From an uncultured Bacteroidota bacterium (lineage in GTDB: Bacteria; Bacteroidota; Bacteroidia; B-17B0; Aurantibacillaceae), in contig CALMVZ010000011.1 of assembly GCA_937873155.1 (NCBI GenBank), positions 62,001-126,000 of the forward strand: DNA of 64,000 nucleotides, given 5' to 3'. The translations under genes and the position numbers were made by a program. Positions 5,041 to 52,849 of the stretch are shown piece by piece; positions within the stretch are counted from its first letter, which is position 1, and each line of letters begins with the position of its first letter. The notes beneath the pieces are model-generated. The model ran no database searches and was not told the origin of the DNA. It saw only the letters and a list, made by a program, of their open reading frames with translations.

Positions 5041-5703
5041 ATGTTTCTTGAAGTTGCCTGCTTTAATTTAGAATCGTGTCTTATTGCCCAAAAAGCAGGC
5101 GCTAAGCGTGTTGAACTTTGTCAAAACTATTCCGCAGGTGGTGTTACTCCGGATGAAACCACGATCATTGAAGCAAGACAACAGTTACGCATCGACCTTT
5201 TTGTAATGATCCGTCCGCGCGAAGGCAATTTTCTTTATTCCGAAATTGAATTTGAGGAAATGCGATCGCAGGTTGAGTTCTGCAAAGAATTAAAATGTAA
5301 CGGCGTTGTTTTTGGAATTGTGACAGAAGAATATCAGGTTGATGTTGCGCGTTGTAAAGAATTGGTAGAATTGGCAAAACCAATGGAATGCACCTTTCAC
5401 AGAGCTTTTGATGAAACCGAAAACATCACTTATGCCTTAGAAGATTGTATAACCGCCGGCTTTACAAGAGTTCTTACCTCCGGGAAAAAAAAGACAGCAA
5501 GAGAAGGAATTGAAAACCTCCAGAAACTTATAGAAAAAGCTAAGAACAGGATCAAAATAATGCCGGGCGGCGGAATACGATCTTCAAATATTTCTGAGTT
5601 ACTGAACAGAACTGTCGCCACCGAATTTCACACGGCTGCGATAACAGACAAAAGTGAGATCGCCAATGAAGCCGAAATAAGAAAAATAATCTCATCGTTT
5701 TGA
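5041..5703 (+). CDS. cutC: CutC family protein (PF03932-type TIM barrel)
   Basis: 220 residues without a signal peptide, so probably cytoplasmic. The start (MFLEVACFNLESCLIAQKAG), the middle (FVMIRPREGNF, TFHRAFDE) and the end (GGGIRSSNI) are typical of CutC. The family was named for copper homeostasis, but its biochemical activity is poorly settled. The ATG directly follows the glycosylasparaginase stop, and its own stop overlaps the TTG start of the beta-mannosidase by four bases, so it is embedded in the N-glycan set. The position suggests a role linked to sugar or amino-acid products of glycan breakdown; that is inference. The family assignment is strong, the role is not. Confidence 0.88.
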   Translation: MFLEVACFNLESCLIAQKAGAKRVELCQNYSAGGVTPDETTIIEARQQLRIDLFVMIRPREGNFLYSEIEFEEMRSQVEFCKELKCNGVVFGIVTEEYQVDVARCKELVELAKPMECTFHRAFDETENITYALEDCITAGFTRVLTSGKKKTAREGIENLQKLIEKAKNRIKIMPGGGIRSSNISELLNRTVATEFHTAAITDKSEIANEAEIRKIISSF

Positions 5704-35010: not shown

Positions 35011-35721
35011 ATGATAAACAAGGTGGTAAAAAATGCAGATGAGGCCCTGAAGGACGTTAAGGACAATATGACCTTAATGTTGGGTGGATTCGGATTATGC
35101 GGTATTCCTGAGAATTGTATTGCGGCTTTAGTTAAAAAGGGCGTAAAAGGTTTAACCTGCATCAGCAATAACGCCGGGGTTGATGATTTCGGATTAGGCT
35201 TATTACTTCAGACCAAACAGATCAAAAAAATGATATCGAGTTATGTTGGCGAGAATGCTGAGTTTGAGAGACAGATGCTGAGTGGAGAATTAGAAGTTGA
35301 TCTTATTCCACAGGGCACTTTAGCTACACGTTGCATGGCCGCCGGATATGGCATGCCGGTTATATTTACTCCTGCAGGAGTTGGGACTGAGATCGCGCAG
35401 GGAAAAGAAGTGCGCAAATTCAAATTCAACGGTGTAGAAAAAGATTATTTGATGGAACATGCTTTTGATTCTGATTTTGCGATCGTAAAAGCATGGAAAG
35501 GCGATACTGTCGGAAATTTAGTTTACCGTTCAACTGCAAGAAATTTTAATCCCATGATGGCAATGGCAGGCAAGATAACAGTTGCAGAAGTTGAACATTT
35601 AGTTCCTGCAGGTGAATTGGATCCTGATCATATTCACACACCGGGAATTTATGTACACCGCATTTTTCAGGGGGAGAAATACGAAAAGCGGATTGAACAA
35701 AGAACTGTAAGAAAAAGATAA
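35011..35721 (+). CDS. scoA: 3-oxoacid CoA-transferase subunit A
   Basis: 236 residues of the class I CoA-transferase alpha family: [19 protein letters not shown] at the start, [28 protein letters not shown] and [19 protein letters not shown]. With ScoB it transfers CoA from succinyl-CoA to acetoacetate, linking ketone-body or amino-acid breakdown to the TCA cycle. It has its own promoter box. The partner gene is not adjacent: a lipoprotein gene of 180 codons lies between them. Confidence 0.93.
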
Positions 35722-35755
35722 TAAAACCAGAAACAAAACGTTAAACAAATAGTTT

Positions 35756-36298
35756 ATGAAAATTCAAAAAACAATTTCCGTTACACTTTCATTTCTTTTA
35801 TCGGGTGTATTTTTCTTTAGCTGCTCTGATGATTTTGAAGAGCCGGTTAAAAATTCTGTAAACATTGACCTTTCAGGAGAATTAACAATGGGAGGGCCTA
35901 ATAGTTTAATTACTGATGAGAACGATCCATCTAATAAGTACTCAAGGGTTGACAGTATTGCACAATATGGTTATGGAGCCGGTTATACAATTCCTGATTC
36001 CTTAAAAGATTGCGACCTGAAACTTGTGATAAGTGGAAAAATGCGGGAAACAGAAAATATTACTGGGTATATAGCTATCGCTTTACATGGAAAAGACTCA
36101 ATATATTTTTGGGGGAATGTATTCGGATATGTTCATGTTAAACAGCTTAATACATGGACTAATTTTATAGACAGCCTGATTATCCCCAAATCTTCTAATA
36201 AACCTTCTTCTCAAAACATAAAAATCTTCCCTTTCAAACAAACTGGGAAAGGTTATTATGACGTTGATAATTTATTAGTGAAAATTACAAGGCAATAA
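35756..36298 (+). CDS. Putative lipoprotein of unknown function inserted between scoA and scoB
   Basis: 180 residues with a lipoprotein signal: basic start (MKIQK), hydrophobic core and the lipobox-like FFFSC with Cys near residue 23, followed by an acidic stretch (SDDFEEP) as in Bacteroidota surface lipoproteins. The rest is beta-rich with no motif I recognise. It lies 34 bases after scoA and 4 bases before scoB on the same strand, so it should be on the same transcript although an exported protein has no obvious role in CoA transfer. The function is unknown. Confidence 0.7.
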   Translation: MKIQKTISVTLSFLLSGVFFFSCSDDFEEPVKNSVNIDLSGELTMGGPNSLITDENDPSNKYSRVDSIAQYGYGAGYTIPDSLKDCDLKLVISGKMRETENITGYIAIALHGKDSIYFWGNVFGYVHVKQLNTWTNFIDSLIIPKSSNKPSSQNIKIFPFKQTGKGYYDVDNLLVKITRQ

Positions 36299-36302
36299 AA
36301 AT

Positions 36303-36959
36303 ATGCTCGATAAAAACGGAATAGCAAAACGGATCGCACGTGAAGTAAAAGACGGCATGTACGTGAATTTAGGAATTGGTATTCCTACTTTGGTTGCTAA
36401 TTATATCCCTGAAGGGATCAATGTTGAGTTACAATCTGAAAATGGCATTTTAGGAATGGGTCCTTTTCCTTTTGAAGGAGAGGAAGACGCAGATCTTATA
36501 AACGCAGGGAAGCAGACCGTTACTTTATTAAATGGTTCATCGATATTTGACTCTGCAACCAGTTTTGGAATGATCCGTGCTCAAAAAGTTGACTTAACGA
36601 TTTTAGGTGCTATGGAAGTAAGCGAGAACGGAGATATTGCCAATTGGAAAATTCCTGGAAAAATGGTGAAAGGAATGGGTGGCGCTATGGATCTTGTTGC
36701 TTCAGCAAAAAACATTATCGTTGCTATGCAACAGGTGAATAAAGCAGGCGAATCAAAATTATTACCAAAATGCTCATTACCACTTACAGGTGTTCATTGT
36801 ATTAAAAAAGTAGTTACTGAATTAGGAGTGTATGATATTCTTCCTGAAGGCGGATTTAAATTACTTGAACGCGCGCCTGGCATTTCAATCGAACAAATAA
36901 AGAAGGCAACAGCGGGAAAGCTGATCATTGAAGGTGATATTCCTGAAATGTCTTTGTAA
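36303..36959 (+). CDS. scoB: 3-oxoacid CoA-transferase subunit B
   Basis: 218 residues of the class I CoA-transferase beta family. VNLGIGIPTLVANYIPEG and the active-site motif SENG (E46, the residue that forms the glutamyl-CoA intermediate) are present, as are GAMEVSENGDIANWKIPGKM and the MGGAMDLV region. It forms the catalytic heteromer with ScoA. It starts four bases after the lipoprotein gene, and a GT39-type gene follows after 27 bases. The length is normal. Confidence 0.93.
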   Translation: MLDKNGIAKRIAREVKDGMYVNLGIGIPTLVANYIPEGINVELQSENGILGMGPFPFEGEEDADLINAGKQTVTLLNGSSIFDSATSFGMIRAQKVDLTILGAMEVSENGDIANWKIPGKMVKGMGGAMDLVASAKNIIVAMQQVNKAGESKLLPKCSLPLTGVHCIKKVVTELGVYDILPEGGFKLLERAPGISIEQIKKATAGKLIIEGDIPEMSL

Positions 36960-36986: not shown

Positions 36987-38498
36987 TTGAAAGAATTTAT
37001 TTTCAAATACAAATACTTAATCTTTGCAGCCATTGTAATAATTCACTTTGCATTTAAATTTTATAAATGCGGTGAGGCCGGGTTATGGTTTGATGAATGC
37101 TTTAGTGTTCAGCTTGCCCAAAAACCGGTAAGTGAGATCATCCGTATTTCAATGCAGGATGATCCCAATCCGCCTTTATATGGTGTGTTGGCGCATTATT
37201 GGATGAAGGCGTTTGGTGATTCTGAAGCAGGGTTACGATCACTTTCTGTTCTTGCAAGTGCATTAGCCGCAGGTATTTTATTTTTACTCTGTCTTAATTT
37301 TTTCAATTGGCAGACTTCGATCTTCGCTTCTTTAATGTATTTTACTTCTAATGAATTGTATTATTACGGATTGGAGGGACGAACATATGCTTTAATAATC
37401 CTGTTTGTTATTTCTTCTTACTATTTATTTTTATCCATAATAAAACGGCCAACATTTTTAAAAGCCATTTTATTTGCCATTGCAAATGCCTGTATTTTTT
37501 ACTCACACTTCCTGGCCTGTTTTGTAATTATAGGCGAAGTTGTATTGTTTCCTTTTCTTGCTTTTCAAGGGGGCAGTATCTCCCTGGTCAACGAAAATAT
37601 TTCTTTTAATATCAAAGCCAGGGCGAAAACATTGGTCTACATTATGCTCTCCACTTTGGTGTTCACGGTTTTTGTCTGGCCATGGAAAGACCGCACCATT
37701 TTTTTATTGCTGGAAGGCGGAAAAGCCATGTGGTTAGCAAAACCTACTTATGCAGAATTCAAACAATGTACTTACGAATTTTTTAATAGCAAGGAATTAT
37801 ACCAGGTTCATATTTTTTCAGCCATTTTATTTGTAGTACTGCTTTGTGTTAAACGGTTCCGTGAAGAAGAATTCAGCTGGCGGATGTTTTTGTTCGCCGT
37901 TGTTGTTGGCCCGGGATTAATGTATTTTAATTATTTCGCCGCAAGCTTCACTCCTATTTTTCTGAAACGTTATATTTTATATTCCTTTCTTGGTTTTATA
38001 TTTATCTACAGTTATTTATTTTCAATGCTTAAATTCCCTTTTTGGATAAAGTTGGTTTTATTCGCTGTCCTTTCCGGTTTTTCATTTTCTAAATTAGTTT
38101 ATCCGCGGGAAGCATATTATGAATACCATAAGGCAGTGCCGTTTTTAAAAGCGACTCAAAAAAACGGAGGAACTTTAATTATTAATGATATGCAGGATGT
38201 GTTTTCATATTATTATGACAAAGAAATTTTCAGGATACCTATGTACCATTTAAAACATGCCGAATTACGTAAACACGATGTTTATACGCCATTTAATCAA
38301 ACCTGGCCGCAGGAAGAAGATTTTTCGATGTACCACGATATTTATTATACACGTACGTTTTGGGGATATTACGATCCTGCAGAAAATATTCCGAAACAAT
38401 TGGCTCAGAAATACACCTGGGTTGGTGATGGCCCTGATTTTAAAGGGATAAAAATTTCACATTATACAAACCCGAATTACAAAGCAAAGGAGAAATAA
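36987..38498 (+). CDS. GT-C glycosyltransferase, GT39/PMT type 1
   Basis: 503 residues from a TTG with about ten to twelve membrane segments. The first extracytoplasmic loop has the GT-C catalytic signature LWFDECFSV (Asp-Glu). The next loop has DDPNPPLYGVLAHYWMKAFG and LEGRTYALI, typical of PMT_2/ArnT-like enzymes, which use polyprenyl-phosphate sugars as donors on the periplasmic face. It heads a same-strand series of glycan genes up to 44275. The donor and acceptor are unknown. Confidence 0.85.
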   Translation: MKEFIFKYKYLIFAAIVIIHFAFKFYKCGEAGLWFDECFSVQLAQKPVSEIIRISMQDDPNPPLYGVLAHYWMKAFGDSEAGLRSLSVLASALAAGILFLLCLNFFNWQTSIFASLMYFTSNELYYYGLEGRTYALIILFVISSYYLFLSIIKRPTFLKAILFAIANACIFYSHFLACFVIIGEVVLFPFLAFQGGSISLVNENISFNIKARAKTLVYIMLSTLVFTVFVWPWKDRTIFLLLEGGKAMWLAKPTYAEFKQCTYEFFNSKELYQVHIFSAILFVVLLCVKRFREEEFSWRMFLFAVVVGPGLMYFNYFAASFTPIFLKRYILYSFLGFIFIYSYLFSMLKFPFWIKLVLFAVLSGFSFSKLVYPREAYYEYHKAVPFLKATQKNGGTLIINDMQDVFSYYYDKEIFRIPMYHLKHAELRKHDVYTPFNQTWPQEEDFSMYHDIYYTRTFWGYYDPAENIPKQLAQKYTWVGDGPDFKGIKISHYTNPNYKAKEK

Positions 38499-38504
38499 CA
38501 GGCA

Positions 38505-39989
38505 ATGCCCATTATTTTAAAATATTTTACAAGAAGCAATTTTATAATCTTATTTCTCCTAATTGCGTCGTGCTTTGCCATATTTTTAAACCTGGATGCC
38601 AACTATATTTTTTTATGGGATGAAGGCACATATGCAGTGAATGCCATTGAAATGCACAAAAGCGGAGATTACTTAGTTAAAACATACGGTGGCGGCCCTG
38701 ATATGTGGGCTACAAACCCTCCGCTTGTTTGTTATTTTCAAACACTTTGTATGAAAATTTTCGGGCCCGGAGAATTGGCTGTAAGAATGCCTTCTGCGCT
38801 TGCGGCACTTGGAGTAGTGTTATTGATAATCAGGTTTTCGATCAAAGAAAATTTAGGGCTTACGTTTGCCGTTTTTGCTGTTTTAACTCTTATAACCTCG
38901 AAGGGATACATTACATATCATGTTACGCGGACCGGAGATCTTGACTCTGTACTCATTTTCTTTATTACAGGATCAATAATGTATTACTATAAATTCATTG
39001 AATATGAAGACAAGAAAATAAAATACCTGTTCATTTTCGGCGTTTTTATTTTACTAGGGTATTTTGCAAAAGGCATTGCTTGTTTTATGATCTTACCAGC
39101 CTTCTTTATTTATACGTTAGTAAAAAATAAGACCCTGTATGTTTTAAAAACAAAGCAATTGCATTTTTTAATTATTGCGATCTTAGGTTTGATCTTTTTA
39201 TATTATTATCTGCGTGAACTGCGATCTCCCGGATACATTGCCTTTGCATGGAAAAGCGAAGTGGGCAGATGGTACACGAAAGTGAATCCGAATCATTTTA
39301 AACCTTTTTTCTATTTTGTCCTCCGGATGTATGAAAAAGATTTTGTTTATTTCTTTTTCTTTATTCCGGCATTTATTATTTACTTCATTTTTCTTCCGAA
39401 AGGAAATGTCAACAAGAACAAAAGTGCCATTTGGATCTTGTCCTTATTTACATTCTTATATATTATTTCAAAATCCTCCACTAAACTTGAGTGGTATGCG
39501 GCTCCTGTTTATCCAATGTTAGCTATAATAATGGGCCTTGGGATCAAATCTGCTTTTACTATTAATAACTATTCCACTGTGTCATCTTATGTACTCAAAA
39601 GTGTAACCGTCCTGGCTTTTTTCACCGGTCCTTATATTTCAATTATCAAGGATGACCTTGCTAAAGATCCGGGGTGGCATGATGTTAAATTTGGCGAGGC
39701 GCTTAAACGTTATAACAGAATTCCTTCTGCGCCAAAAAAAATAGAAATGCTCATAACAGGATATAATGGACATGCTCAATTCTACGCTAATTTATACAAT
39801 GATAAATTTGGATACGAAATTTCGATACGTGATGTTGCAGGGAATATAACGATGAGTCCCGGAGGAATATATTTATTTACACATCCCGCCATTTCAGATC
39901 ATTTAAAACATGGTTTTGAGTACGATGTGATAATGGAAAATGATGGGATGATGGCAGTAAAAATCATTAAATTAAAGGTTACTCCTTAA
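38505..39989 (+). CDS. GT-C glycosyltransferase, GT39/PMT type 2
   Basis: 494 residues, about eleven membrane segments. The first loop carries LWDEGTYAVNA (Asp-Glu pair), followed by WATNPPLVCYFQTLCMKIFG and ELAVRMPSALAALG, the standard PMT_2 arrangement. It lies six bases after the previous GT-C gene but is not a close copy of it. The two could add different sugars to the same lipid-linked glycan from polyprenyl-phosphate donors. Substrate specificity cannot be read here. Confidence 0.86.
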   Translation: MPIILKYFTRSNFIILFLLIASCFAIFLNLDANYIFLWDEGTYAVNAIEMHKSGDYLVKTYGGGPDMWATNPPLVCYFQTLCMKIFGPGELAVRMPSALAALGVVLLIIRFSIKENLGLTFAVFAVLTLITSKGYITYHVTRTGDLDSVLIFFITGSIMYYYKFIEYEDKKIKYLFIFGVFILLGYFAKGIACFMILPAFFIYTLVKNKTLYVLKTKQLHFLIIAILGLIFLYYYLRELRSPGYIAFAWKSEVGRWYTKVNPNHFKPFFYFVLRMYEKDFVYFFFFIPAFIIYFIFLPKGNVNKNKSAIWILSLFTFLYIISKSSTKLEWYAAPVYPMLAIIMGLGIKSAFTINNYSTVSSYVLKSVTVLAFFTGPYISIIKDDLAKDPGWHDVKFGEALKRYNRIPSAPKKIEMLITGYNGHAQFYANLYNDKFGYEISIRDVAGNITMSPGGIYLFTHPAISDHLKHGFEYDVIMENDGMMAVKIIKLKVTP

Positions 39990-40043
39990 TTGGTAAAGAA
40001 TGATGCAAGGACATTTTATATACTTAATACCCTATTTAACAAA

Positions 40044-41459
40044 ATGAAAGTAGCTGTCATTGGAGCTGGTCCCGCCGGTATGACCGCCGGTTACGAGTTA
40101 TCCAAACATATAAAAGATGTTGATCTGTATGAGGCGGGGCCGAGCGTAGGAGGTATGTCAAAGACCATTGAACTCTGGAATCAAAAAGTGGATATTGGCC
40201 CGCATCGTTTTTTTAGCAACGATACAAGGGTAAACGAACTATGGCTGGAGGTTGTTGGTAATGATTATGAAATGGTAAACCGGTTAACACGCATTTACTA
40301 CAATAAAAAATTCTTTCACTACCCTATCAAAGCTTTTAATGCCTTAATGAACATAGGGATCTTTAAAGCAACTTCGTGTATGTTCTATTATGGACTTGAA
40401 AAAATTTCACCTACTAAAGACATCAGTACATTTGAAGGATGGGTCACTAACCGCTTCGGAAAAAAACTATACCAGATCTTTTTTAAAACCTATACTGAAA
40501 AATTATGGGGGATCCCTTGCAATGTATTAGATGCAGATTTTGCAGCGCAGCGTATTAAAAAGTTCAGCCTGGGAGAAGCGATCAAAACAGCTTTATTCGG
40601 CAACAGCGGCAAACACAAAACATTGGTTGACCAGTTCGCATATCCTTATGGTGGCACAGGCATGGTATACGAACGCATGGCTTCATTTATTAAAAGTAAA
40701 GGCGGAAATATAAATTTAAGATCTCCTGTAAAAAAAGTAATTACTAAAGATGGCGTGGCTTGTGCATTGGAATTAGAAGATGGTACGATAAAAGAATACG
40801 ACCACATTATTTCTTCAATGCCATTGTCGTTGATGGTTTCCCGATTACCGGAAGTTCCTGAGAAAATCAAAATGGCTGCTAATAGTTTAAAATTCAGGAA
40901 CACGATCATAGTTTATTTAAATGTGCAGGCTAAAGACCTGTTCCCTGATAACTGGTTGTACGTTCACAGTAATGACCTTGAGATGGGGCGTCTAACTAAC
41001 TTCAGAAATTGGGTGCCTGAACTTTATGGCAAAGAAGAAAGTACGATCTGCGCCCTTGAATATTGGTGTTACGATGAAGATGAGATCTGGACACGTGATG
41101 AGAGCAAATTGATAGAATTAGGTAAAGAAGAATTAAGAAAAACAGGTTTGATCGGTAATGCAGAAATCACAGGCGGACACGTTTATAAAATTCCAAAATG
41201 TTATCCCGTTTATGGTACAGGGTATAAACAAACTTTGAAGCCTGTGGAAGAATATTTAGACACCATTAAGAATTTACACGTTATTGGCCGTTATGGCGCT
41301 TTTAAATACAATAACCAGGATCATAGTATCTTAATGGGGAAATTAGCTGCTGAGAATATTCTTAAGAATACGAAACACAATCTTTGGGAGATCAATACCG
41401 ATTACGAAGATTACCAGGAGGCAAGTGTCATTACAAAAACAGGACTTAAGAAAAAATAA
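40044..41459 (+). CDS. FAD-dependent oxidoreductase, UDP-galactopyranose mutase/amine-oxidase-like
   Basis: 471 residues from the ATG at 40044 (MKVAVIGAGPAGMTAGYEL); an earlier in-frame TTG at 39990 adds 18 residues before the dinucleotide motif and is rejected. The FAD-binding GxGxxG, DLYEAGPSVGGMSKT and VDIGPHRFF are like those of UDP-galactopyranose mutases and related flavoproteins. It is longer than classical UGM (about 380 residues), and the C-terminus has IGRYGAFKYNNQDHSI. Set between GT-C genes, it may supply a furanose sugar or oxidise a lipid-linked sugar; that role is inference. Confidence 0.8.
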   Translation: MKVAVIGAGPAGMTAGYELSKHIKDVDLYEAGPSVGGMSKTIELWNQKVDIGPHRFFSNDTRVNELWLEVVGNDYEMVNRLTRIYYNKKFFHYPIKAFNALMNIGIFKATSCMFYYGLEKISPTKDISTFEGWVTNRFGKKLYQIFFKTYTEKLWGIPCNVLDADFAAQRIKKFSLGEAIKTALFGNSGKHKTLVDQFAYPYGGTGMVYERMASFIKSKGGNINLRSPVKKVITKDGVACALELEDGTIKEYDHIISSMPLSLMVSRLPEVPEKIKMAANSLKFRNTIIVYLNVQAKDLFPDNWLYVHSNDLEMGRLTNFRNWVPELYGKEESTICALEYWCYDEDEIWTRDESKLIELGKEELRKTGLIGNAEITGGHVYKIPKCYPVYGTGYKQTLKPVEEYLDTIKNLHVIGRYGAFKYNNQDHSILMGKLAAENILKNTKHNLWEINTDYEDYQEASVITKTGLKKK

Positions 41460-41461
41460 AA

Positions 41462-43222
41462 TTGTCTGCTTTTTTTGATAAGTGTAGAACAAATAAAGAA
41501 ATTATCTTTAAATTGATAGTTCTTGTCTTTATTTCTTTCATATGTATAAACAGAATAAATCATTTACCTTCCTATCCTACTGGTGATGGAGCCGAATACG
41601 TTTTAGTTACAGAAGCATTCTACAAACATAAATCTCCTGATATTCGTCCAAAAGATTCTTGGTCATTCAAAAAATCATTTACTAAAGTTCTGGCTTGGGA
41701 TAGTGTTTATAAGCCGCATGTTTTTGATGCATTCGAAGGTTTTATTACAAAGCCAAACAAAAAATTTAATGAACCCGGCGATTCTTATGGAGGGCTATAC
41801 GTGGCGAAAAACGGGAAGATCTACGGATATCATTTCTTTACCTACTCTCTTTTAAATGTACCTGCGCGATATTTTGTTGGCCTGCTTCATAAAAATCCAT
41901 TATCAGCTTTTAAAATCACTAATTCGATATTTGTTCTTATTACTTGTCTTATACTTCTTTTTTATACTCCATTCAATTTATTTATAAGCAGTCTCATTGC
42001 AATTTCCTTTTATTATTCATCCGTATATTGGTACATCGAATGGACACACCCTGAAGTTTTTACCGCTTGTTTTGTGACAGCTAGTTTATGGCTGTTTTTT
42101 CAGGATAAATATTATATCTCACTTTTATTAATGGCCATTGCTACAACACAAAACCAGCCGTTAATTTTAATGTTATTTTTCATGGGTATAATAACATTGT
42201 TTCATAAAGGATTAAATTACAAAACAATTATTAAAACCGGGATGTGTTGTATTTTAAGCATATTACCTCCTCTATTTTATTTTTATCACTTTGAAACCTT
42301 TAGTATAATTAAAAAAGCCGGGTTTCTAGATTCTCAATATCAAACTCCAACAAGAATATTTGGCTTTTATTTTGATGTCAATCAGGGAATGATCTTAGCA
42401 ATTCCTGTTGTTCTTATTTGTTATATCGCTTTTTGGATCAAAAACATCTATATAACAGTAAGACAAAAACAAACTGTTACGTTTCATGTATTCCTTCCCC
42501 TTGTTTTGATCGCTATTACCTTCACAGTTTCAGCGATGGGAAACTGGAATCATGGACAGGCAGTTATAAATCGATATGCCACATGGGTAAGCTCAATTAT
42601 TCTCGTACATTTCTTTTTCCTTCTCAATACAACAAAACCAATAACGAAAACCATACTCATATCATTGATCGCTATAAGCCAAATATTTACTGCTGAATAC
42701 CACAGTAAGATCAATAACACTGATCTTAGTTGGTATCAACATAAGCCGTTTGCTAAATGGGTTTTAAGTAATTATCCGGCCTTGTATAATCCTGATCCTA
42801 CTATTTTTGGCACAAGAACTTCACCCAATTTTAATATTTTACCCAATATTTCGCCTGTTATTTTCTTTGATGAAAAAAAAGAGGCTTGTAAAATAATGTG
42901 TCATATTACTAAGGTGGAAGAATTATCCATTTTTGGTATTTCCCAAAAAACCATCGAATATTTTAAAAAAGAAAAAAAAGTAATTAATGGCTGGATATAT
43001 GTTAATAAAGGAGATTATACCTCCGGTTATCCGACCGAAAAAATTCATTATCTTGCTTCTTATCTTAAAGCAAAAAGAATAATAATTCCAAAAATAAAGG
43101 AAGACGCGTCTTGGTATAAACACGTTAAAGACAATGCAAAGGTATTGAACATTAGTGAAGATTCGTCTTTAATGATCGACGCTCTTTATGTCCTTAATCT
43201 TGAAGATAGAGACAATAATTAA
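41462..43222 (+). CDS. Large GT-C-like membrane protein 1
   Basis: 586 residues from a TTG two bases after the previous stop. About ten membrane segments are followed by a soluble C-terminal domain (about residues 430-586). Near the N-terminus is PTGDGAEYVLVTEAF, an Asp-containing first-loop motif like that of GT-C enzymes. Shared signatures with the minus-strand gene at 46373-48109 include GDGxEYV, GFYxDxxQGMIL, MGNWNHG and LYNPDPxIF, so the two are paralogues with matching layout. Probably a polyprenyl-phosphate-dependent glycosyltransferase, but the family is one I do not recognise by name. Confidence 0.72.
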   Translation: MSAFFDKCRTNKEIIFKLIVLVFISFICINRINHLPSYPTGDGAEYVLVTEAFYKHKSPDIRPKDSWSFKKSFTKVLAWDSVYKPHVFDAFEGFITKPNKKFNEPGDSYGGLYVAKNGKIYGYHFFTYSLLNVPARYFVGLLHKNPLSAFKITNSIFVLITCLILLFYTPFNLFISSLIAISFYYSSVYWYIEWTHPEVFTACFVTASLWLFFQDKYYISLLLMAIATTQNQPLILMLFFMGIITLFHKGLNYKTIIKTGMCCILSILPPLFYFYHFETFSIIKKAGFLDSQYQTPTRIFGFYFDVNQGMILAIPVVLICYIAFWIKNIYITVRQKQTVTFHVFLPLVLIAITFTVSAMGNWNHGQAVINRYATWVSSIILVHFFFLLNTTKPITKTILISLIAISQIFTAEYHSKINNTDLSWYQHKPFAKWVLSNYPALYNPDPTIFGTRTSPNFNILPNISPVIFFDEKKEACKIMCHITKVEELSIFGISQKTIEYFKKEKKVINGWIYVNKGDYTSGYPTEKIHYLASYLKAKRIIIPKIKEDASWYKHVKDNAKVLNISEDSSLMIDALYVLNLEDRDNN

Positions 43223-43234
43223 TATATTTAATAC

Positions 43235-44275
43235 ATGGGAACTTTAAGATTCCTTCTGGCACTTTCAGTTATTGCATCCCATGCTGCAGGGCTTGGAATA
43301 CCTATGCCTAAAGGCCATGCCTTTCCTTTGTGGGGAATGTATTTGATCGATGGCCGGCAGGCAGTTGCTTTGTTTTTTATCATTTCAGGATTTTACATGG
43401 CGCTTGTGGTAAACACTAAATACAAAAATGAAACGCTGAAATTCTACCTGAACAGGTTCCTCAGACTTTGGCCGGCGTATATAGTTGTTTTCATACTCGC
43501 CTTTATTTTTACACCCACGGGCACCAATATCATTAACGCGCTTAAAGATTGCGGCTTTGCTACTAAAGCCTATGTTTGGCTCTGCAATGTGTTTATTTTA
43601 GGTACGGACTCCTTTTGGCTTTTAAGCCTTGACAACTGTCATCTTATTTATCATCCCTGGTTTATTAACCCGGATTCCAACGGCGCATCTTTACTTATGA
43701 ACCAGCCCGCCTTTAGCATAAGTATGGAAATGATATTTTATTTAATGGCGCCATTTATTTTAAGATCTGTTAAAAGGACATGGATCTATTTTTTTCTTGG
43801 AGTAATTTATTTTTTTATAATAGAGTTAACTAATAATGTCAACATGATCTATCAATATCATTTGCTTCCTGCAAGTTTTATCTATTTTGCACTTGGTGCT
43901 TTGGCATGGCATTACTCCCAAATAAAAACCTTTGAATTAACAAATAAAAAACTAATCCTGATCTTTGCCGGCTGCTTCAGTTTAATGTTTGTATATACCT
44001 TGTTTTCCATGATCATTATTTTAGGCTTTACCATTTTGATCCCAAGATTATTTGAACTGACCAAAAACAACAAAGCAGACCGGTTCATTGGCGAATTATC
44101 GTACCCGCTTTACCTGGTTCATTTTCCCGTACTAATTTTCTTGTGGGGCCATGGAGTTGCAGCTAATAAGATCGGGATCGTTTGTTTCGGTATCACTTTA
44201 GTGATATCTGTACTGATCCACTTAGCGATTGAAAGGCCAATAGACAAATGGCGGCAAAAAATGCTTCTACACTAA
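43235..44275 (+). CDS. Acyltransferase 3 family membrane protein 2
   Basis: 346 residues with about ten membrane segments. The start has GTLRFLLALSVIASHAAGLG (Arg and His of the catalytic motif), followed by ALFFIISGFYMAL and LNRFLRLWPAYIVV. It is more distant from the other two acyltransferases in the region. It closes the plus-strand glycan series 12 bases after the GT-C-like gene and probably acylates the glycan made by it. The 3' end overlaps the convergent HAD gene by nine bases. Confidence 0.88.
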   Translation: MGTLRFLLALSVIASHAAGLGIPMPKGHAFPLWGMYLIDGRQAVALFFIISGFYMALVVNTKYKNETLKFYLNRFLRLWPAYIVVFILAFIFTPTGTNIINALKDCGFATKAYVWLCNVFILGTDSFWLLSLDNCHLIYHPWFINPDSNGASLLMNQPAFSISMEMIFYLMAPFILRSVKRTWIYFFLGVIYFFIIELTNNVNMIYQYHLLPASFIYFALGALAWHYSQIKTFELTNKKLILIFAGCFSLMFVYTLFSMIIILGFTILIPRLFELTKNNKADRFIGELSYPLYLVHFPVLIFLWGHGVAANKIGIVCFGITLVISVLIHLAIERPIDKWRQKMLLH

Positions 44276-44854
44276 AAAAGTTTCAGAGGCCAATTCAAAC
44301 ATTTCTTTATCTCCGTTACCATTTCCGTAAGCAATGATTTTTGAATACGACTGCAAGTTATAGTTTCCTTTTATCCTGACAGCCTTTTCTGCATTATTAC
44401 AATTTAAACCCTTAAACTCCCCCGTACAAACATCATTTCTGAAATCAAGCCCGGTACACAAATATTCAATATTAAATTTTTTACAAAAAGGCTCTATCCA
44501 AATATCAAGTGAAGCGGACACAACACAGACAACAGCGTTTTTTTCCTTATAACCTCTTAATTGCTCTAAAATGTCATTCCTGAATCCGTTTTCTTCTGTT
44601 AGTTTTCCGATGAATTTATTTCCCTTATCCTTTAATTCCTTTTCACTTTTTCCTTTAAAATAAAAAGAAACAAGCTTTTGTTTAAGTTTGGTGCCATCTA
44701 CTATTTTTAAGAAGTACAAAATAATAAAAGGAGAAAAAAAGACAGATCCCGCTATACCTTTTAAATATCCTTCTGAAAACAGTATGAACTGAATGAAGGT
44801 ATCACGTTTTGTGATAGTGCCGTCAAAATCAAATAATACAAGAGTTTTATTCAT
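44267..44854 (-). CDS. HAD-IB family phosphatase
   Basis: 195 residues of the haloacid dehalogenase superfamily, phosphoserine-phosphatase-like: DFDGTIT (nucleophile D9, acid D11), a helical cap, SASLDIW (motif II Ser) and GNGNGDKEMFELA (motif IV). The context argues against serine synthesis: it is the last gene of a four-gene minus-strand operon with the DPPR-synthase-like UbiA enzyme. It would then remove the phosphate from polyprenyl-phospho-phosphoribose. Its start overlaps the methyltransferase stop by one base. The fold is certain, the substrate inferred. Confidence 0.85.
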   Translation of the reverse strand: MNKTLVLFDFDGTITKRDTFIQFILFSEGYLKGIAGSVFFSPFIILYFLKIVDGTKLKQKLVSFYFKGKSEKELKDKGNKFIGKLTEENGFRNDILEQLRGYKEKNAVVCVVSASLDIWIEPFCKKFNIEYLCTGLDFRNDVCTGEFKGLNCNNAEKAVRIKGNYNLQSYSKIIAYGNGNGDKEMFELASETFLV

Positions 44855-45498
44855 TACTGCTTTTCACAAACAACAAAATAGTGAGCATACACAAAAACGG
44901 TTTTCTTAAAATCACTAATGATCTTAAATCCGGCGCCGCTTAGCATTTCTTTCGCTTTTTTGAAAGAGATCTCTTTTCCAATTTCTCCTGCAAATACCAT
45001 ATCATGCATTTTATTAAAAACAACTAAAGGAGAACCGCCATCGATATCTTTAAATACCAGAACTGCTCCCGGCTTCATCTTTTGCTGCAACTGCTGCATG
45101 AAAGCGATCTGTTGTGCCGGAGGAATATGATGAAATACATCTATCATATAAACCAGGTCATACTCTTTGATCTCCTCAGGGATAACTTTCCCGTCAAATA
45201 CTTCAAATTTTATATTCTTGTTAATTCTGAATTCTTCATTTACCTCGTTAGCATTTTTAACAAGGCGTTCATTGATCTCAATGCCCATTATCTTCTCAGC
45301 GCTCGTATACTTTGCGATCAGCGCACAAAACTGGCCTGAACCACAACCGATATCAAATACAGACCTTTTGTCTTTTGCAAGATCGATGAGATCCGTAAAC
45401 GGACAAATGATAGGCCTGTACTTTATTTTCAACCTGTCTACAAAACCTGCATTTGTAGTTTTGGAAGTCAGGAATTTAATGATCTCCGAATTCGTCAT
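44854..45498 (-). CDS. Class I SAM-dependent methyltransferase
   Basis: 214 residues. The SAM-binding motif I is VFDIGCGSGQFCALI (about residues 48-62), followed by MGIEINE, YDLVYMIDVFHHIPP and GAVLVFKDIDGG. It is a small soluble methyltransferase of the Methyltransf_11/25 type. It sits between the UbiA-like gene (5-base gap) and the HAD gene (1-base overlap), so it is part of the same pathway, perhaps methylating the glycan or lipid intermediate. The substrate cannot be deduced. Confidence 0.85.
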   Translation of the reverse strand: MTNSEIIKFLTSKTTNAGFVDRLKIKYRPIICPFTDLIDLAKDKRSVFDIGCGSGQFCALIAKYTSAEKIMGIEINERLVKNANEVNEEFRINKNIKFEVFDGKVIPEEIKEYDLVYMIDVFHHIPPAQQIAFMQQLQQKMKPGAVLVFKDIDGGSPLVVFNKMHDMVFAGEIGKEISFKKAKEMLSGAGFKIISDFKKTVFVYAHYFVVCEKQ

Positions 45499-45503
45499 CC
45501 TGA

Positions 45504-46373
45504 TTATTTAATGTAAATTATTACTGCGAAGAAAAGCATCCACAAAATAACAGTCGTTTGCAGAAAAAGATCGCCGATCAGGACTTTGGTTGGTGAACCG
45601 CTTTTGCCTTCAACCAGTGTGATCTGTAAATAACGCAAAATACCCATGATCACAAATACAGTTGAAATATAGGCATGTTTATTCTGGAAACGGGAAATTA
45701 TCTCGGGAGAAGTAATGTACAATAAATAGGATACTACAAGGATACCACATAAAATACTGATAGCAGAAGAAATGAACTCAAGATTATACCCGGAAATGGA
45801 TTTACGCATTTGCTCACCGGTTTCTTTTTCCAGTAACACATCGTCACGCCGTTTCGCAAATGCAATGAACAATGCGATCAGGAATGTCATAATATAAAGC
45901 CAATAGGATATTTCAATTTCCCCCACCACCCCACCTGCAGTTACACGCAAAACAAATCCTATTGAAATAATAAAAATATCGATCAGCGAAATTTTCTTTA
46001 AGCCAAACGAATAGAATAAATTCATTAGAAAATAAATTCCAAGCACAATTGTTAGATTTTTATTTATAAAATAAGACAGGACAAATGAAGTAATAGCTAA
46101 AAAACAGAACAAAGACATAGCTGTTACTTTTGTAACGGTTCCTGCAGCAAGCGGCCTCTTGCTTTTGGCAGGATGCAAGCGGTCTTTTTCAATATCCATG
46201 TAATCATTAATGATATAAAGACTGCTGGCATTCAGGCTAAAAATTAAAAAAGCAAAAGTACAGGATATGAACTTATCAACATCGAACAGACTTCCGGAAA
46301 AGAATAAGGGCGCGAAAACAAAAAAATTCTTCAGCCATTGATGCACGCGTATTAAATGAATGTATTTAAGCAT
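45504..46373 (-). CDS. UbiA-family prenyltransferase, polyprenyl-phosphate phosphoribosyltransferase-like
   Basis: 289 residues with about eight membrane segments. The motif NDYMDIEKDRLHPAKSKRP (residues 56-74; N56, D57, D60, D64, R65, H67, P68, R73, P74) matches the NDxxDxxxDRxHPxKxxRP signature of decaprenyl-phosphate phosphoribosyltransferases (Rv3806c type) better than quinone-synthesis UbiA. The second Asp-rich site is AKRRDDVLLEKE. Such enzymes make polyprenyl-phospho-5-phosphoribose, precursor of lipid-linked ribose/arabinose. It is co-operonic with a HAD phosphatase, a methyltransferase and a GT-C-like protein. No DprE1/DprE2 epimerase is in view. Confidence 0.85.
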   Translation of the reverse strand: MLKYIHLIRVHQWLKNFFVFAPLFFSGSLFDVDKFISCTFAFLIFSLNASSLYIINDYMDIEKDRLHPAKSKRPLAAGTVTKVTAMSLFCFLAITSFVLSYFINKNLTIVLGIYFLMNLFYSFGLKKISLIDIFIISIGFVLRVTAGGVVGEIEISYWLYIMTFLIALFIAFAKRRDDVLLEKETGEQMRKSISGYNLEFISSAISILCGILVVSYLLYITSPEIISRFQNKHAYISTVFVIMGILRYLQITLVEGKSGSPTKVLIGDLFLQTTVILWMLFFAVIIYIK

Positions 46374-48109
46374 TAGTCTTGTGCTTCATTTTTCTCTTCC
46401 AATGATACAATATATTCGGCATCCATCCAACAGGCCTCATCCAGTGTTTTATTCCATTCTACGGCTTTTTTCTTAAGACCTTCCATCCAGGATTCTGTAT
46501 TAAGTATCTTTTCATATACTTTCTTTACTTTTTTCTTGCGTACGATCTGGTATACATAACCTGCTTCGGTACCCGAATTAAAGAGATCCATGTTCAAATA
46601 ACCCCATCCGTAATTGAATCGGATATCCTTCTTCAGCTTTGCAATTATCTGTGGCGTCAGTCCGAATTCGGAAAGAGCATTCATCTTATTATTGTGGACA
46701 AGGATCTTTTTCGGGATCTTTTTACTAAAATAGATCACCGGGGAATTTTCCGGCTCAAGGTCAACAGCCGGACTTGTCCTTCCGGCAAATATCTTTGGAT
46801 CGGGATTATATAATTCAGGATGATTATTTAATACCCATTTAGCTAATGGCGTAAAGTTTCCGCTGCTCCAATCATTAATATTGAATTGCTGATGGTAATA
46901 GGTTGTGAAAATTTGTGTCAGGCTAAAACTAATAAAGAAAATTACTTTGCCTTTAACCTGGTGCGATAAATAAAACACATGCATCATGATAATGATACTT
47001 GCCCAACTGGCATACCGGTTAATTATGGCCATCCCATGATTCCAGTTACCCATTGTAGAAACAGTGATGCTTATACCGATAACCGCAACAGGAATAAAAA
47101 TGGTAAGATCGAACGGTATCTGTTTTTTAAACATCTTCCGTATCTCAACTGCTAATAAAGGAATATAGATCAATAAGATCAAGGGTATTGTTAAGATCAT
47201 CCCCTGGCTTAGATCAGTATAAAATCCTGTAATGCGGTTTGCAGTGATGTATTTCGTATCTAAAAAGCCAACCTCCTTTATCATGTTGGTCACACCAAAA
47301 TTTATATAATAATAGACCGGCGGGATAAACGCTATAGCTGCCAGCAATCCTGTTTTTACAATGTTTTTTAAATTGAATCCAAGTTCTTTTATGGCAATTA
47401 AACAGAACAAGCCCAATAAAATTATTAAAGGCTGATTTTGCAGACAGGCCAATGCTAAAATTATAACTGCTAAATGATATTTTTTATTGAACAGCGCTAC
47501 AAATGCGATGGCAATTAAACTGCAGGTGTACACTTCCGCATGCTGCCAGCCTAAATACCAATAACAGGCGCTGAAACAAAAACAAATTGCAGAAAGGACC
47601 TGATTAAGAACAGAAAAAGGCGCGAAGAACAAGATCACAAAACAGGCCAGTATCATAAAAAATGCATTGGTGAAATAGAATGACCTTATAGGTCCGTACT
47701 CCTTTGTTAGTGTATAAGAAGGTAAATTCACTAACGAATAAAAAAAGAAGTGGCCGCAATGCCATTTTTTGTTTTTGTTACAATAAAAACCCATTGTGCC
47801 TTCTTTAAAAAGCTGTTCCGAGGCAGTTAAATACGCCATCTCAATATCAACAACCTTTGGCGCAAGGGGACTGTTCCAGCCGTGAACTTTACTATACCGC
47901 TCTCTGAATAGTGCAAGGTCTGCTAGTCTCATGTCAGGCGTAAAATGATTTTGGAGTGCTTCCGTCATTATAACATATTCGATACCATCTCCCTTAATGA
48001 ATGGTTCCTTAAAATCATTAGCACTCCGTTCCAGGTACAAAACAGAGATCCCGATCAGAACAAAGGTCTTTAAAACATTGTATTTGTATTTCAGGAGTTT
48101 CTCCGTCAC
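46373..48109 (-). CDS. Large GT-C-like membrane protein 2
   Basis: 578 residues from a GTG. It has the same layout as the protein at 41462-43222: first-loop KGDGIEYVIMTEAL, about ten membrane segments, ITGFYTDLSQGMILTIP, STMGNWNHGMAIINRYASW, WVLNNHPELYNPDPKIF, and a soluble C-terminal domain. It overlaps the UbiA-like gene by one base and is the first gene of that operon, so it is the likely user of the polyprenyl-phospho-pentose. The paralogue in the opposite-strand series may use the same donor. The family is unnamed to me. Confidence 0.72.
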   Translation of the reverse strand: MTEKLLKYKYNVLKTFVLIGISVLYLERSANDFKEPFIKGDGIEYVIMTEALQNHFTPDMRLADLALFRERYSKVHGWNSPLAPKVVDIEMAYLTASEQLFKEGTMGFYCNKNKKWHCGHFFFYSLVNLPSYTLTKEYGPIRSFYFTNAFFMILACFVILFFAPFSVLNQVLSAICFCFSACYWYLGWQHAEVYTCSLIAIAFVALFNKKYHLAVIILALACLQNQPLIILLGLFCLIAIKELGFNLKNIVKTGLLAAIAFIPPVYYYINFGVTNMIKEVGFLDTKYITANRITGFYTDLSQGMILTIPLILLIYIPLLAVEIRKMFKKQIPFDLTIFIPVAVIGISITVSTMGNWNHGMAIINRYASWASIIIMMHVFYLSHQVKGKVIFFISFSLTQIFTTYYHQQFNINDWSSGNFTPLAKWVLNNHPELYNPDPKIFAGRTSPAVDLEPENSPVIYFSKKIPKKILVHNNKMNALSEFGLTPQIIAKLKKDIRFNYGWGYLNMDLFNSGTEAGYVYQIVRKKKVKKVYEKILNTESWMEGLKKKAVEWNKTLDEACWMDAEYIVSLEEKNEAQD

Positions 48110-48217: not shown

Positions 48218-48916
48218 TTGGAGAAAACCACCAAAATACTCATCATTTTACCTTGTTTTAACGAGGAGCAGAGCATCGGAAATATTCTTGGTCAATTAAA
48301 GACAATTAACGTTAAAGACTGTGAACTTATTGCCCTTCCGGTGAATGATGCTTCTACAGATAACACACTTGCAGAAATAAAAAAACAAAGTACAACTTAT
48401 CTTGACCTTCCGAAAAACCTTGGCATTGGTGGTGCAGTGCAAAGCGGATTAAAATACGCGCAAGAAAATAATTTTGATATTGCTGTTCAAATGGATGGCG
48501 ATGGCCAGCATCCGCCCCTGGAGTTGGTAAAAATAATTACCCCCATTTTAAATAATGAGACGGATGTTTGTATAGGCTCACGTTTTATTGATAAAGAAGG
48601 ATTTCAATCCAGCTTTTTGAGAAGAGTTGGCATTACTTTTTTGAGCGGTTTAATAAAATTACGCTGCGGACAAACAGTTCTCGATTGCACATCGGGATAT
48701 CGCGCTTTCAATAAAAAAGCCATCGAAGCATGTGTAAAGTATTACCCGAAAAAATATCCGGAGCCGGAATCTGCTTTGTACCTGATCAAAAAAGGGATCC
48801 GTGTAAAAGAAATTCCTGTGATCATGGATGCGCGTGACGGAGGTACTTCTTCGATAAGTGGTTTCAGAAGCATATACTATATGCTTAAAGTTTCGCTGGC
48901 AATACTCAGAACCTAA
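48218..48916 (+). CDS. Family 2 glycosyltransferase, DPM1/polyprenyl-phosphate type
   Basis: 232 residues from a TTG. ILIILPCFNEEQSIGNIL, LPVNDASTDNT and QMDGDGQHPP (DxD) are clear, followed by GSRFIDKEGF and DCTSGYRAFN. The short length and lack of a membrane domain fit dolichol-phosphate mannose synthase-like enzymes, which load a sugar onto polyprenyl phosphate for the GT-C enzymes. It stands alone on the plus strand between two minus-strand genes, and its stop is five bases from the convergent acyltransferase stop. Confidence 0.88.
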   Translation: MEKTTKILIILPCFNEEQSIGNILGQLKTINVKDCELIALPVNDASTDNTLAEIKKQSTTYLDLPKNLGIGGAVQSGLKYAQENNFDIAVQMDGDGQHPPLELVKIITPILNNETDVCIGSRFIDKEGFQSSFLRRVGITFLSGLIKLRCGQTVLDCTSGYRAFNKKAIEACVKYYPKKYPEPESALYLIKKGIRVKEIPVIMDARDGGTSSISGFRSIYYMLKVSLAILRT

Positions 48917-51409: not shown

Positions 51410-52108
51410 CTATTTAGCTATAACCAACCGCCTCACAAAACTTCGCTCGTGATCCTCTATTTTTACAATATAAACACCGGCAGCCAGGCCATCGGTGTTT
51501 ATAATTGAAGATGCATCTATTGAACTTATCTCAAACTCCATTACAGTTTTTCCATTGATATCACAAATAATCCCACGCCTGTTCTTTGGCAAATACCCGT
51601 TCTCAAAAACCAAACTAACTTTACCGACTGAAGGATTCGGAAAAACATCAAACATTATTTGTTCTTCGGTGTAGTTTTTTATACCAACCCAACCTGTAAC
51701 CGGTGACCAGTATTTTCGACCGTAAAACCAGAAAAACCTATCCCAGAAAGTAGGTATCCAAAAAAATTTCAATCTTAAACTATCATTAAAGCCAAAATAT
51801 TTTCCATTGAAACACTGACAGGAAGCCGGCGTTCTAATAAAACTTGTATCGACAAAGTATTTAACAAAACCTGTAGCATATGATCCCTTACATTTATCAG
51901 TAGACGTTAAATAATTACCTGAAGGAAAAGTTCCTTCATCTATAGTCATTGTATCATTGTAACAAACTGTATATATAGTAGAGTCTGCAAGATCATGTTC
52001 ATATATAACTCCATAATATTTTCCTATAATAACAGAGTCAAAATAATACGATTGGGAAAAGCTGTTTAGGCTAAACAGGAATGAAACTATGTACAAATAC
52101 TTTTTCAG
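51410..52108 (-). CDS. T9SS-secreted small protein, duplicate 1 (start codon CTG or TTG)
   Basis: About 228-232 residues. By alignment with the neighbour the natural start is MKKYLYIVSF, but the first codon here (52106-52108) is CTG rather than ATG; a TTG at 52094-52096 is the alternative. The signal peptide (LFSLNSFSQ) and the sorting domain (VFPNPSVGKVSLVFENG, AAGVYIVKIEDHERSFVRR) are nearly identical to those of the gene at 52151, whereas the middle is much more diverged. The middle keeps CQCFNGKYFGFNDSLRLK and FYGRKYWSP, so the two share ancestry. The function is unknown; the start change could lower expression. Confidence 0.72.
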   Translation of the reverse strand: MKKYLYIVSFLFSLNSFSQSYYFDSVIIGKYYGVIYEHDLADSTIYTVCYNDTMTIDEGTFPSGNYLTSTDKCKGSYATGFVKYFVDTSFIRTPASCQCFNGKYFGFNDSLRLKFFWIPTFWDRFFWFYGRKYWSPVTGWVGIKNYTEEQIMFDVFPNPSVGKVSLVFENGYLPKNRRGIICDINGKTVMEFEISSIDASSIINTDGLAAGVYIVKIEDHERSFVRRLVIAK

Positions 52109-52150
52109 TCTGCTAAAGATAGGGAAAAATTGCTTGATTTTTTATCCTGA

Positions 52151-52849
52151 CTATTTAGCTATAACGAACCGCCTCACAAAACTTCGCTCGTGATCCTCTA
52201 TTTTTACAATATAAACACCGGCAGCCATGCCATTGGTGTTTATAATTGAAGATGCATCTATTGAACTTATCTCAAACTCCATTACAGTTTTTCCATTGAT
52301 ATCGCAAATAATTCCTCGTCTGTTCTTTGGTAAATACCCATTTTCAAAAACCAAACTCACTTTGCCTGCTGAAGGATTTGGAAAAACATCAAAAACAATT
52401 TGTTCTTTGATGTTTTCTTTTATTCCGATCGAACCGGTTATTGGTGACCAATACTTCCGGCCATAAAACCAATAAAAATATTGCCAGTCGGGCGGACTAT
52501 AATACTTTAATCGCAAACTGTCATTAAAACCAAAGTATTTGCCATTAAAGCATTGGCATGCCGCCGGTAATCTTATAAAACTGGTATCCTGAAAGTGTTT
52601 TACACCACCACCACCTTTATAAATTGCCCAGCATTTTTCTTCACAATTCAAATAATTGTTTGCAGGATAAATACTCTCATCAATTGTCATCGTATCGTTG
52701 CTACAAATTGAAATTATTGTCGTGTCAACTGTAGAATGCCTTACAGTTTTTCCGTAATACTTCCCAATAATTAAAGTATCAAAATAATACGATTGGGAAA
52801 AGCTGTTTAGGCTAAACAGGAATGAAACTATGTACAAATACTTTTTCAT
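52151..52849 (-). CDS. T9SS-secreted small protein, duplicate 2
   Basis: 232 residues with signal peptide MKKYLYIVSFLFSLNSFSQ. A core of about 130 residues with three or four Cys and the motif CQCFNGKYFGFNDSLRLK is followed by a type A sorting domain (VFPNPSAGKVSLVFENG). The last 80 residues match the neighbouring duplicate at all but about four positions. The ATG overlaps the stop of the upstream GH16 gene by four bases (52846-52849), so they are co-transcribed. I recognise no domain in the core. Confidence 0.8.
   Translation of the reverse strand: MKKYLYIVSFLFSLNSFSQSYYFDTLIIGKYYGKTVRHSTVDTTIISICSNDTMTIDESIYPANNYLNCEEKCWAIYKGGGGVKHFQDTSFIRLPAACQCFNGKYFGFNDSLRLKYYSPPDWQYFYWFYGRKYWSPITGSIGIKENIKEQIVFDVFPNPSAGKVSLVFENGYLPKNRRGIICDINGKTVMEFEISSIDASSIINTNGMAAGVYIVKIEDHERSFVRRFVIAK

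Follow-up and report, generated by a model that had tools for sequence, protein, structure and literature searches.

A proposed lipid-linked pentofuranose cassette with a conserved methyltransferase in a variable locus of an uncultured Bacteroidota bacterium

The three-component pentofuranose system of Citrobacter youngae O1/O2 (ribofuranose/xylofuranose) consists, in its published description, of the PPPRS ORF15, the flippase ORF14, and the GT136 enzyme ORF12 (Kelly et al. 2024; PMC11127046). With farnesyl phosphate, the published product masses are m/z 513 for the lipid-linked ribose-5-phosphate and 435 for the lipid-linked ribose. In the main text of that paper, the only methyltransferase mentioned is the one to which the chain terminator ORF5 is related, and no word begins with "Bacteroid". 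In mycobacteria, decaprenyl-phospho-arabinose is produced by Rv3806c, Rv3807c, DprE1, and DprE2. Here we describe a group of four genes (44267-48109) in a 64,000-nucleotide stretch from an uncultured Bacteroidota bacterium (assembly GCA_937873155.1, contig CALMVZ010000011.1, positions 62,001 to 126,000), called the window below. The group is proposed to act as a cassette for lipid-linked pentofuranose within a variable locus for a surface glycan.

The four open reading frames (ORFs) are all on the minus strand, head to tail in the order GT-C protein (GTC2), UbiA, methyltransferase, and HAD phosphatase, in agreement with the overlapping operon of the first-pass annotation. The GT-C/UbiA and methyltransferase/HAD junctions are TAATG with one shared base, and the UbiA/methyltransferase gap is 5 bases. 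Because two junctions share one base and the third gap is so short, the four genes very probably constitute one operon.

The closest published model is the Citrobacter system rather than mycobacterial arabinan synthesis. As far as the published account of the former goes, both it and the window have a UbiA-type PPPRS, a HAD-type 5'-phosphatase, and a GT-C protein with the same eight residues, and both lack DprE1/2. The HAD is a separate gene in the window, whereas it is fused in Citrobacter, and the window operon has a methyltransferase and no flippase gene, unlike the Citrobacter system. The mycobacterial pathway shares its first step and active site with the window, but the bacterium has no DprE1 in its genome, has a HAD phosphatase instead of the Rv3807c type, and has the methyltransferase. 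The likeness to the first mycobacterial steps that was initially noted applies to the UbiA phosphoribosyltransferase, not to the arabinose branch.

In the proposed pathway, UbiA would transfer ribose-5-phosphate from phosphoribosyl pyrophosphate (PRPP) to polyprenyl phosphate (step 1), and HAD would take off the 5'-phosphate, leading to polyprenyl-phosphate-ribofuranose (step 2). The soluble methyltransferase would O-methylate the ribose while it is lipid-linked and cytoplasmic (step 3). A flippase would be required to move the donor out (step 4). GTC2, perhaps together with GTC1, a second GT-C protein of the locus, would pass the pentose to the surface glycan via a GT136-type active site (step 5). 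The sequence and residue comparisons make step 1 nearly certain and steps 2 and 5 likely. It is probable, with good confidence, that steps 1, 2, and 5 all hold and that the sugar is ribose rather than arabinose.

The window UbiA is close to certain to be a polyprenyl-phosphate phosphoribosyltransferase. It contains the PF01040 domain (4.1e-23, Pfam), and the motif NDxxDxxxDRxHPxKxxRP of DPPR synthases, already pointed out in the first-pass annotation, is present as NDYMDIEKDRLHPAKSKRP from residue 56. The curated NCBIfam model for decaprenyl-phosphate phosphoribosyltransferase, NF008978, is passed with 221.2 bits (cut-off 207), while two sister models stay under their cut-offs (NF008977, 226 of 234; NF008976, 182.7 of 474). 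The best match among solved sequences is Rv3806c (8J8J, E 2.6e-41), followed by DGGGP synthase (2.3e-4). Of the 12 Rv3806c residues that the structure paper (PMC10994848) names in its text as binding PRPP, ribose, or Mg, 10 are identical: R22, K28, Y70, N73, D77, K87, R90, Y138, K143, and K208 correspond to R9, K15, Y53, N56, D60, K70, R73, Y121, K126, and K191 of UbiA. The other two differ, Q135 corresponding to N118 and Y157 to F140. The closest named relative is from a Bacteroidia metagenome-assembled genome, with UbiA 78% identical.

An ordinary UbiA prenyltransferase for quinone, haem, or lipid in an unrelated operon would share the PF01040 superfamily, but this reading is extremely improbable. 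The quinone models are far under their cut-offs (TIGR01474, 32.8 of 275.45; TIGR01475, 31.2 of 180.8). The genome encodes five other UbiA paralogues, one of which passes TIGR01475 and one the heme o synthase model; two are below the cut-offs and one has no match. The quinone and haem roles thus have alternative candidates. These paralogues keep only 3 to 6 of the 12 PRPP-site residues, and all five lack K28 and K87. A possible counter-example was sought in the Ubi-297 paper (PMC9235831), whose authors report that they did not find a DPPRS-group enzyme in their genomes.

Related UbiA proteins were observed in other contexts. In 11 Bacteroidota loci (L069, L070, L077, L091, L094, L097, L098, L103, L104, L106, and L110; L numbers denote loci or neighbourhoods and G numbers genomes), a UbiA with near-identical PRPP residues, only the last column varying, lies directly after a gene which we take to resemble methylmalonyl-CoA mutase. 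Proteins of group G1, encoded upstream of other UbiA genes, do not look like glycosyltransferases. UbiA matched 100 plasmid records, 21 of them over more than 80% of its length; GTC2 matched none. The Lactococcus plasmid pLLF27D (L134) carries UbiA-HAD-GtrA, with UbiA and HAD as separate neighbours in a polysaccharide locus, as in the window. Unlike the window, it carries GtrA and has no methyltransferase among its listed genes. It is typed as mobilizable, indicating that such cassettes can move. A 6.6-kb unannotated phage record from human faeces (MT837543.1) encodes a UbiA at 4874-5734 that is 47% identical to that of the window; it is the only such phage record found, and viral contigs contained no relative.

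The four genes travel together. Among 87 related genomes sampled at the order level, eight carry a UbiA of this family, seven of them over the cut-off; that of G034 is split over two contigs, and G009 (18.9 bits) was left out of the count. The methyltransferase (E 1e-15) is present in all eight carriers and in one of the 79 others, G083 (Fisher 1.5e-10, with relatedness ignored). The GT-C protein (E 1e-20) is likewise present in 8/8 carriers and in one of the 79 others, G057. In G057, the second GT-C match stops short, about 100 bases from the edge of a 4688-base contig, and any UbiA gene after it would lie out of view. The methyltransferase gene adjoins HAD in every carrier, and UbiA, methyltransferase, and HAD are contiguous in six. 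The GT-C gene is always beside the module: directly upstream of UbiA in four (the window, L051, L052, and L057) and next to HAD in four. Since the methyltransferase, HAD, and GT-C genes accompany UbiA in all eight, their grouping is not due to chance, and the earlier assignment of these genes to one set with UbiA is borne out.

Three carriers, G054 (L007, 10116-12824), G016 (L053, 6342-8902), and G034 (L056, 2220-4777), have a gene pair for a DltB-like MBOAT protein and a partner within the cassette or next to it. In G016 and G034, it lies between UbiA and the methyltransferase gene, the latter staying beside HAD. The MBOAT protein of L007 scores 154 of 375 bits against TIGR04091. The pair suggests O-acylation of the same glycan.

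The HAD protein is the likely 5'-phosphatase of polyprenyl-phosphate-ribose-5-phosphate. It scores 74.9 bits against TIGR01488 (cut-off 45) and 77.6 bits against TIGR01490, under the cut-off of 98.3. The DFDGT motif and the Asp of the last motif are invariant in 14/14 sequences.

GTC2 matches no Pfam or NCBIfam family. Its structure, predicted from nine input sequences, has a mean predicted local distance difference test score (pLDDT) of 76.2 and a predicted template modelling score of 0.76. In VIA-align, the model resembles ALG12 (Z 19.6), ArnT with undecaprenyl phosphate (17.8), and AftA (15.4). Going by their titles, rows 1 to 47 are GT-C enzymes, oligosaccharyltransferases, or translocons that include one, and among them is also chain U of GPI transamidase, which we take to be GT-C-like; at row 48, Z drops to 5.0. 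Foldseek gave ALG6 at E 9.4e-3 and nothing below 0.001. The model thus assigns GTC2 the GT-C fold, as the first-pass annotation had supposed.

The catalytic prediction for GTC2 comes from individual residues. According to the published list, the eight residues mutated in ORF12, the founder of GT136, are D31, E34, Y35, H106, H174, E176, R349, and Y350. In vivo, D31A, E34A, H106A, and R349A are inactive, Y35A is much reduced, and Y350A retains a trace (PMC11127046). Against this list, the counterparts are D41, E44, Y45, H120, H190, E192, R365, and Y366 in GTC2 (offsets 10, 10, 10, 14, 16, 16, 16, and 16) and D42, E45, Y46, H124, H196, E198, R371, and Y372 in GTC1. The constellation is invariant in 9/9 aligned sequences of this GT-C family. 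It was found in 0 of 20000 shuffled sequences, allowing a slack of 10 residues between blocks, and in 11 of 458 distinct ORFs of at least 350 aa from the window and the fetched loci, all belonging to this GT-C family, with one apparently a partial copy of another. Because of this residue match, its invariance, and the counts in shuffled and real sequences, GTC2 and GTC1 probably work like GT136. In the model, the C-terminal part of GTC2 is mostly helical with a few strands, and the fold comparison hardly extends into it, whereas ORF12 is described as having a beta-rich carbohydrate-binding module, dispensable there. GTC2 appears to represent a sequence family confined, in the searches made, to one bacterial family.

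The sugar is likely to be ribose, plain or methylated, over arabinose. In a sample of 392 genomes of the phylum, 51 of which exceed the UbiA cut-off, the 53 best-scoring places besides the window were taken; 49 were readable, and L059, L071, L090, and L101, with no UbiA ORF under the threshold, were dropped from the neighbourhood, residue, and tree counts. Homologues of both DprE1 and DprE2 are near UbiA in 12 of the 49 neighbourhoods, and of DprE2 only in one more. HAD is directly beside UbiA, with no DprE genes in view, in five. None of the 49 has the methyltransferase within the listed genes. The HAD-only label of L108 is local, as DprE1 is about 13 kb away in the same genome. A further arrangement, UbiA-DprE2-HAD with no DprE1 homologue in view, was observed in L088, whose adjoining GT-C protein is like that of Chitinophaga L009.

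The Chitinophaga loci L008 and L009 (UbiA-DprE1-DprE2-HAD) belong to the same phylum and the same UbiA clade as the window, and HAD is the last gene in both sets. They have two epimerase genes where the window has one methyltransferase gene. The first of the pair in L008 has DprE1 as its best model, below the cut-off (418.6 of 500); the second passes the unnamed short-chain dehydrogenase/reductase (SDR) model PRK07102 (344.5 of 267), with DprE2 second best (216.3 of 250). BLAST shows no significant similarity between the GT-C protein of L009 and GTC2. The seven methyltransferase-type sequences of the UbiA tree fall on one side of a branch (94/94), and the enclosing clade (98/93) adds 14 DprE-type, 6 HAD-only, and 1 other sequence. 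Rv3806c and the five paralogues form long branches whose placement was not used, and the partial L056 was left out. By gene order, the predicted methyltransferase stands in the slot that is filled by the DprE1/DprE2 epimerases in relatives.

The first-pass annotation had allowed for arabinose supply and suggested looking for DprE1-like genes. In a search of 14 genomes with NF053785, DprE1 was absent from 8/8 carriers (the highest score being 48.5 bits, for the own genome, with 29.5-34.1 for the other seven; DprE2 was not searched separately). It was also absent from G423 and G474, and it was clear in G378, G185, G351, and G135 at 396.5-439 bits, all below the curated 500. The own genome has 0 matches to the ALO domain, and the operon has no oxidase/SDR epimerase pair. 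Ribose is favoured because DprE1, whose gene adjoins UbiA in related Bacteroidota loci, is missing from the carriers. Those same loci are what speaks for a mycobacterial-type pathway in which lipid-linked ribose is epimerised to arabinose; here it is very unlikely, and the suggestion of arabinose supply is not upheld.

The FAD-dependent oxidoreductase encoded near the operon belongs to a different family from DprE1. It was considered as a dedicated epimerase and rejected, as it is present in 10 of the 87 genomes but in only 3 of the 8 UbiA carriers (Fisher 0.046). Its identity is 82-89% in eight of the nine other genomes with a match and 68% in the ninth.

The methyltransferase has a predicted class I fold (pLDDT 86.1), with MitM, Rv2258c, NovO, AtmM, and RebM as the best fold matches. 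These matches leave its substrate unfixed, and it is proposed to be the tailoring enzyme of the pentose. S-Adenosylmethionine is cytoplasmic and GT-C enzymes act outside, so any ribose methylation must precede export. Among the 392 phylum genomes, the candidates scored gave a methyltransferase only in G456 besides the own genome; in this search and one other, scoring extended to a subset of each genome's first-look candidates (at most 7 and 3 in the rows shown), and weak relatives could have escaped it. Among the open-licence papers listed, none stood out as treating a methyltransferase in a cassette of this kind, and nothing relevant was found on methyl-ribose and flavobacterial glycans.

Several points weigh against the pathway as proposed. 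In the window HAD, Asn replaces the first acidic residue of what we take to be motif IV, as it does in 2 of the 13 other rows, L052 and L057. The only match of GTC2 among solved sequences is a T-cell receptor chain (E 0.32), taken as chance, and its comparison with ORF12 uses the published residue list and spacing, not the ORF12 sequence. Two of the eight residues are dispensable in ORF12, as H174A and E176A are reported to be wild-type-like in vivo (PMC11127046). The ribose argument covers DprE1; a GalE-type epimerase, as for the xylofuranose of Citrobacter O2, is outside the searched scope. For the flippase, the genome-wide search covered GtrA and SMR, but not EamA, DUF2304, or other families: GtrA has 0 matches in the own genome and is present in 1/8 carriers, and the single SMR protein of the own genome is unlinked and absent from the other seven carriers. 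Methyltransferase homologues with 47-49% identity are found in G083, which has no UbiA match, and in G456, on a different contig from its UbiA, near a GT2-like gene and genes that by eye resemble polysaccharide genes.

These two homologues are consistent with the same donor pathway operating with plain ribose while the target of the methyltransferase is the acceptor glycan or the cytoplasmic lipid-linked precursor of that glycan, and so is the persistence of the methyltransferase beside HAD, not UbiA, where the MBOAT pair interrupts. This is a serious alternative, to which we give slightly less than an even chance. It is opposed by the gene order in the carriers, by the presence of UbiA in 9 of the 10 genomes with the methyltransferase, and by conservation: compared with G054, the nearest carrier, the methyltransferase reaches 88%, the highest value among the proteins of the operon (UbiA 78, HAD 59, and GT-C 59/50). 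Action of the methyltransferase on lipid-linked ribose is put forward as a tentative reading. Quite tentative, too, is the full scheme in which it replaces the epimerases for tailoring, and a polyprenyl-phosphate O-methyl-ribofuranose donor is exported and used by a new GT-C family with a GT136-type site. Methylation of the glycan as such is plausible.

Table 1. Genes of the proposed cassette and its neighbours (positions in the window).
Feature	Position	Strand	Basis
GTC2, GT-C membrane glycosyltransferase (predicted), proposed ribofuranosyltransferase, 578 aa, GTG start	46373-48109	-	Fold and residue constellation
UbiA-superfamily polyprenyl-phosphate phosphoribosyltransferase (predicted), 289 aa	45504-46373	-	NF008978, 8J8J, PRPP-site residues
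Class I SAM-dependent methyltransferase, 214 aa	44854-45498	-	Methyltransf_23 1.5e-19
HAD-IB phosphatase, 195 aa	44267-44854	-	PF12710 2.4e-24, TIGR01488
GTC1, second GT-C protein, 586 aa	41462-43222	+	38% identity to GTC2 (alignment), same residue constellation
Acyltransferase-3 family membrane protein	43235-44275	+	PF01757; recurrent module neighbour
GT2 polyprenyl-phosphate-sugar synthase-like protein	48218-48916	+	PF00535 2.7e-20; divergent from GTC2
FAD-dependent oxidoreductase, PRK07208 type	39990-41459	+	NF005548 551.7 bits, cut-off 389

The operon is located between plus-strand genes (Table 1). The row at 36987-44275 encodes two PMT-type proteins, the FAD oxidoreductase, GTC1, and the acyltransferase, and the end of the last gene overlaps the convergent end of the HAD gene by 9 bases. 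An acyltransferase homologue adjoins UbiA in L053, L055, and L021 and lies past the MBOAT pair in L057; that of L051 is more distant (44% identity). On the other side, the divergent GT2 gene starts 108 bases from GTC2. Its best named matches, AglJ and PpgS, are both under the cut-off (NCBIfam). A GT2 like it is inside the stretch read in 7/8 other loci, the exception being L051. In a sister genome (L151), a DUF2304 protein (Pfam) is encoded beside a GT2 gene; by eye, L053, L055, L152, and L156 contain similar small ORFs, and the window none.

This proximity, together with the two PMT-type proteins and GTC1 in the same locus, would fit a reading in which UbiA and HAD make polyprenyl-phosphate-ribose for another enzyme, while GTC2 uses the product of GT2. 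It is unlikely, since the GT2 gene is also present in G052, G053, and G055, members of the same genus without UbiA and GTC2, whereas the GTC family follows UbiA and GTC2 has the GT136 constellation. GT2 probably supplies the locus with another lipid-linked sugar, and GTC2 is preferred as the user of the ribose donor.

In those three genomes, the same interval contains the FAD oxidoreductase, GT2, and other membrane proteins, and has no match to UbiA, the methyltransferase, HAD, or GTC. The cassette is, for this reason, regarded as an accessory part of a variable locus, which is taken as a glycan locus because of its glycosyltransferases. The variable interval is flanked by homologues of what are presumably PBP1 and CoA-transferase genes on one side and rpoN and tyrS on the other.

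Two further features were observed in the window. At 35011-36959, a small gene (35756-36298) is inserted between two genes that we take to encode CoA-transferase subunits, and its homologues differ in number and place among relatives. At 51410-52849, adjacent small secreted-looking proteins have near-identical C-terminal ends, by eye apparently a recent duplication.

This kind of pathway is already published (Kelly et al. 2024). The window departs from it in the conserved methyltransferase in the DprE1/DprE2 slot, the separate HAD, and the GT-C sequence family. The findings extend the pentofuranose pathway described in 2024 to a Bacteroidota lineage, and they indicate that the function of a GT-C family without a Pfam or NCBIfam entry may be predictable from the GT136 residues. 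That members of a single genus have or lack the cassette at the same locus is in keeping with surface-antigen variation. Whether methylation takes the place of epimerisation in the tailoring of lipid-linked ribose becomes a directly testable question; if the methyltransferase acts on ribose, a lipid-linked O-methyl-ribose donor would result.

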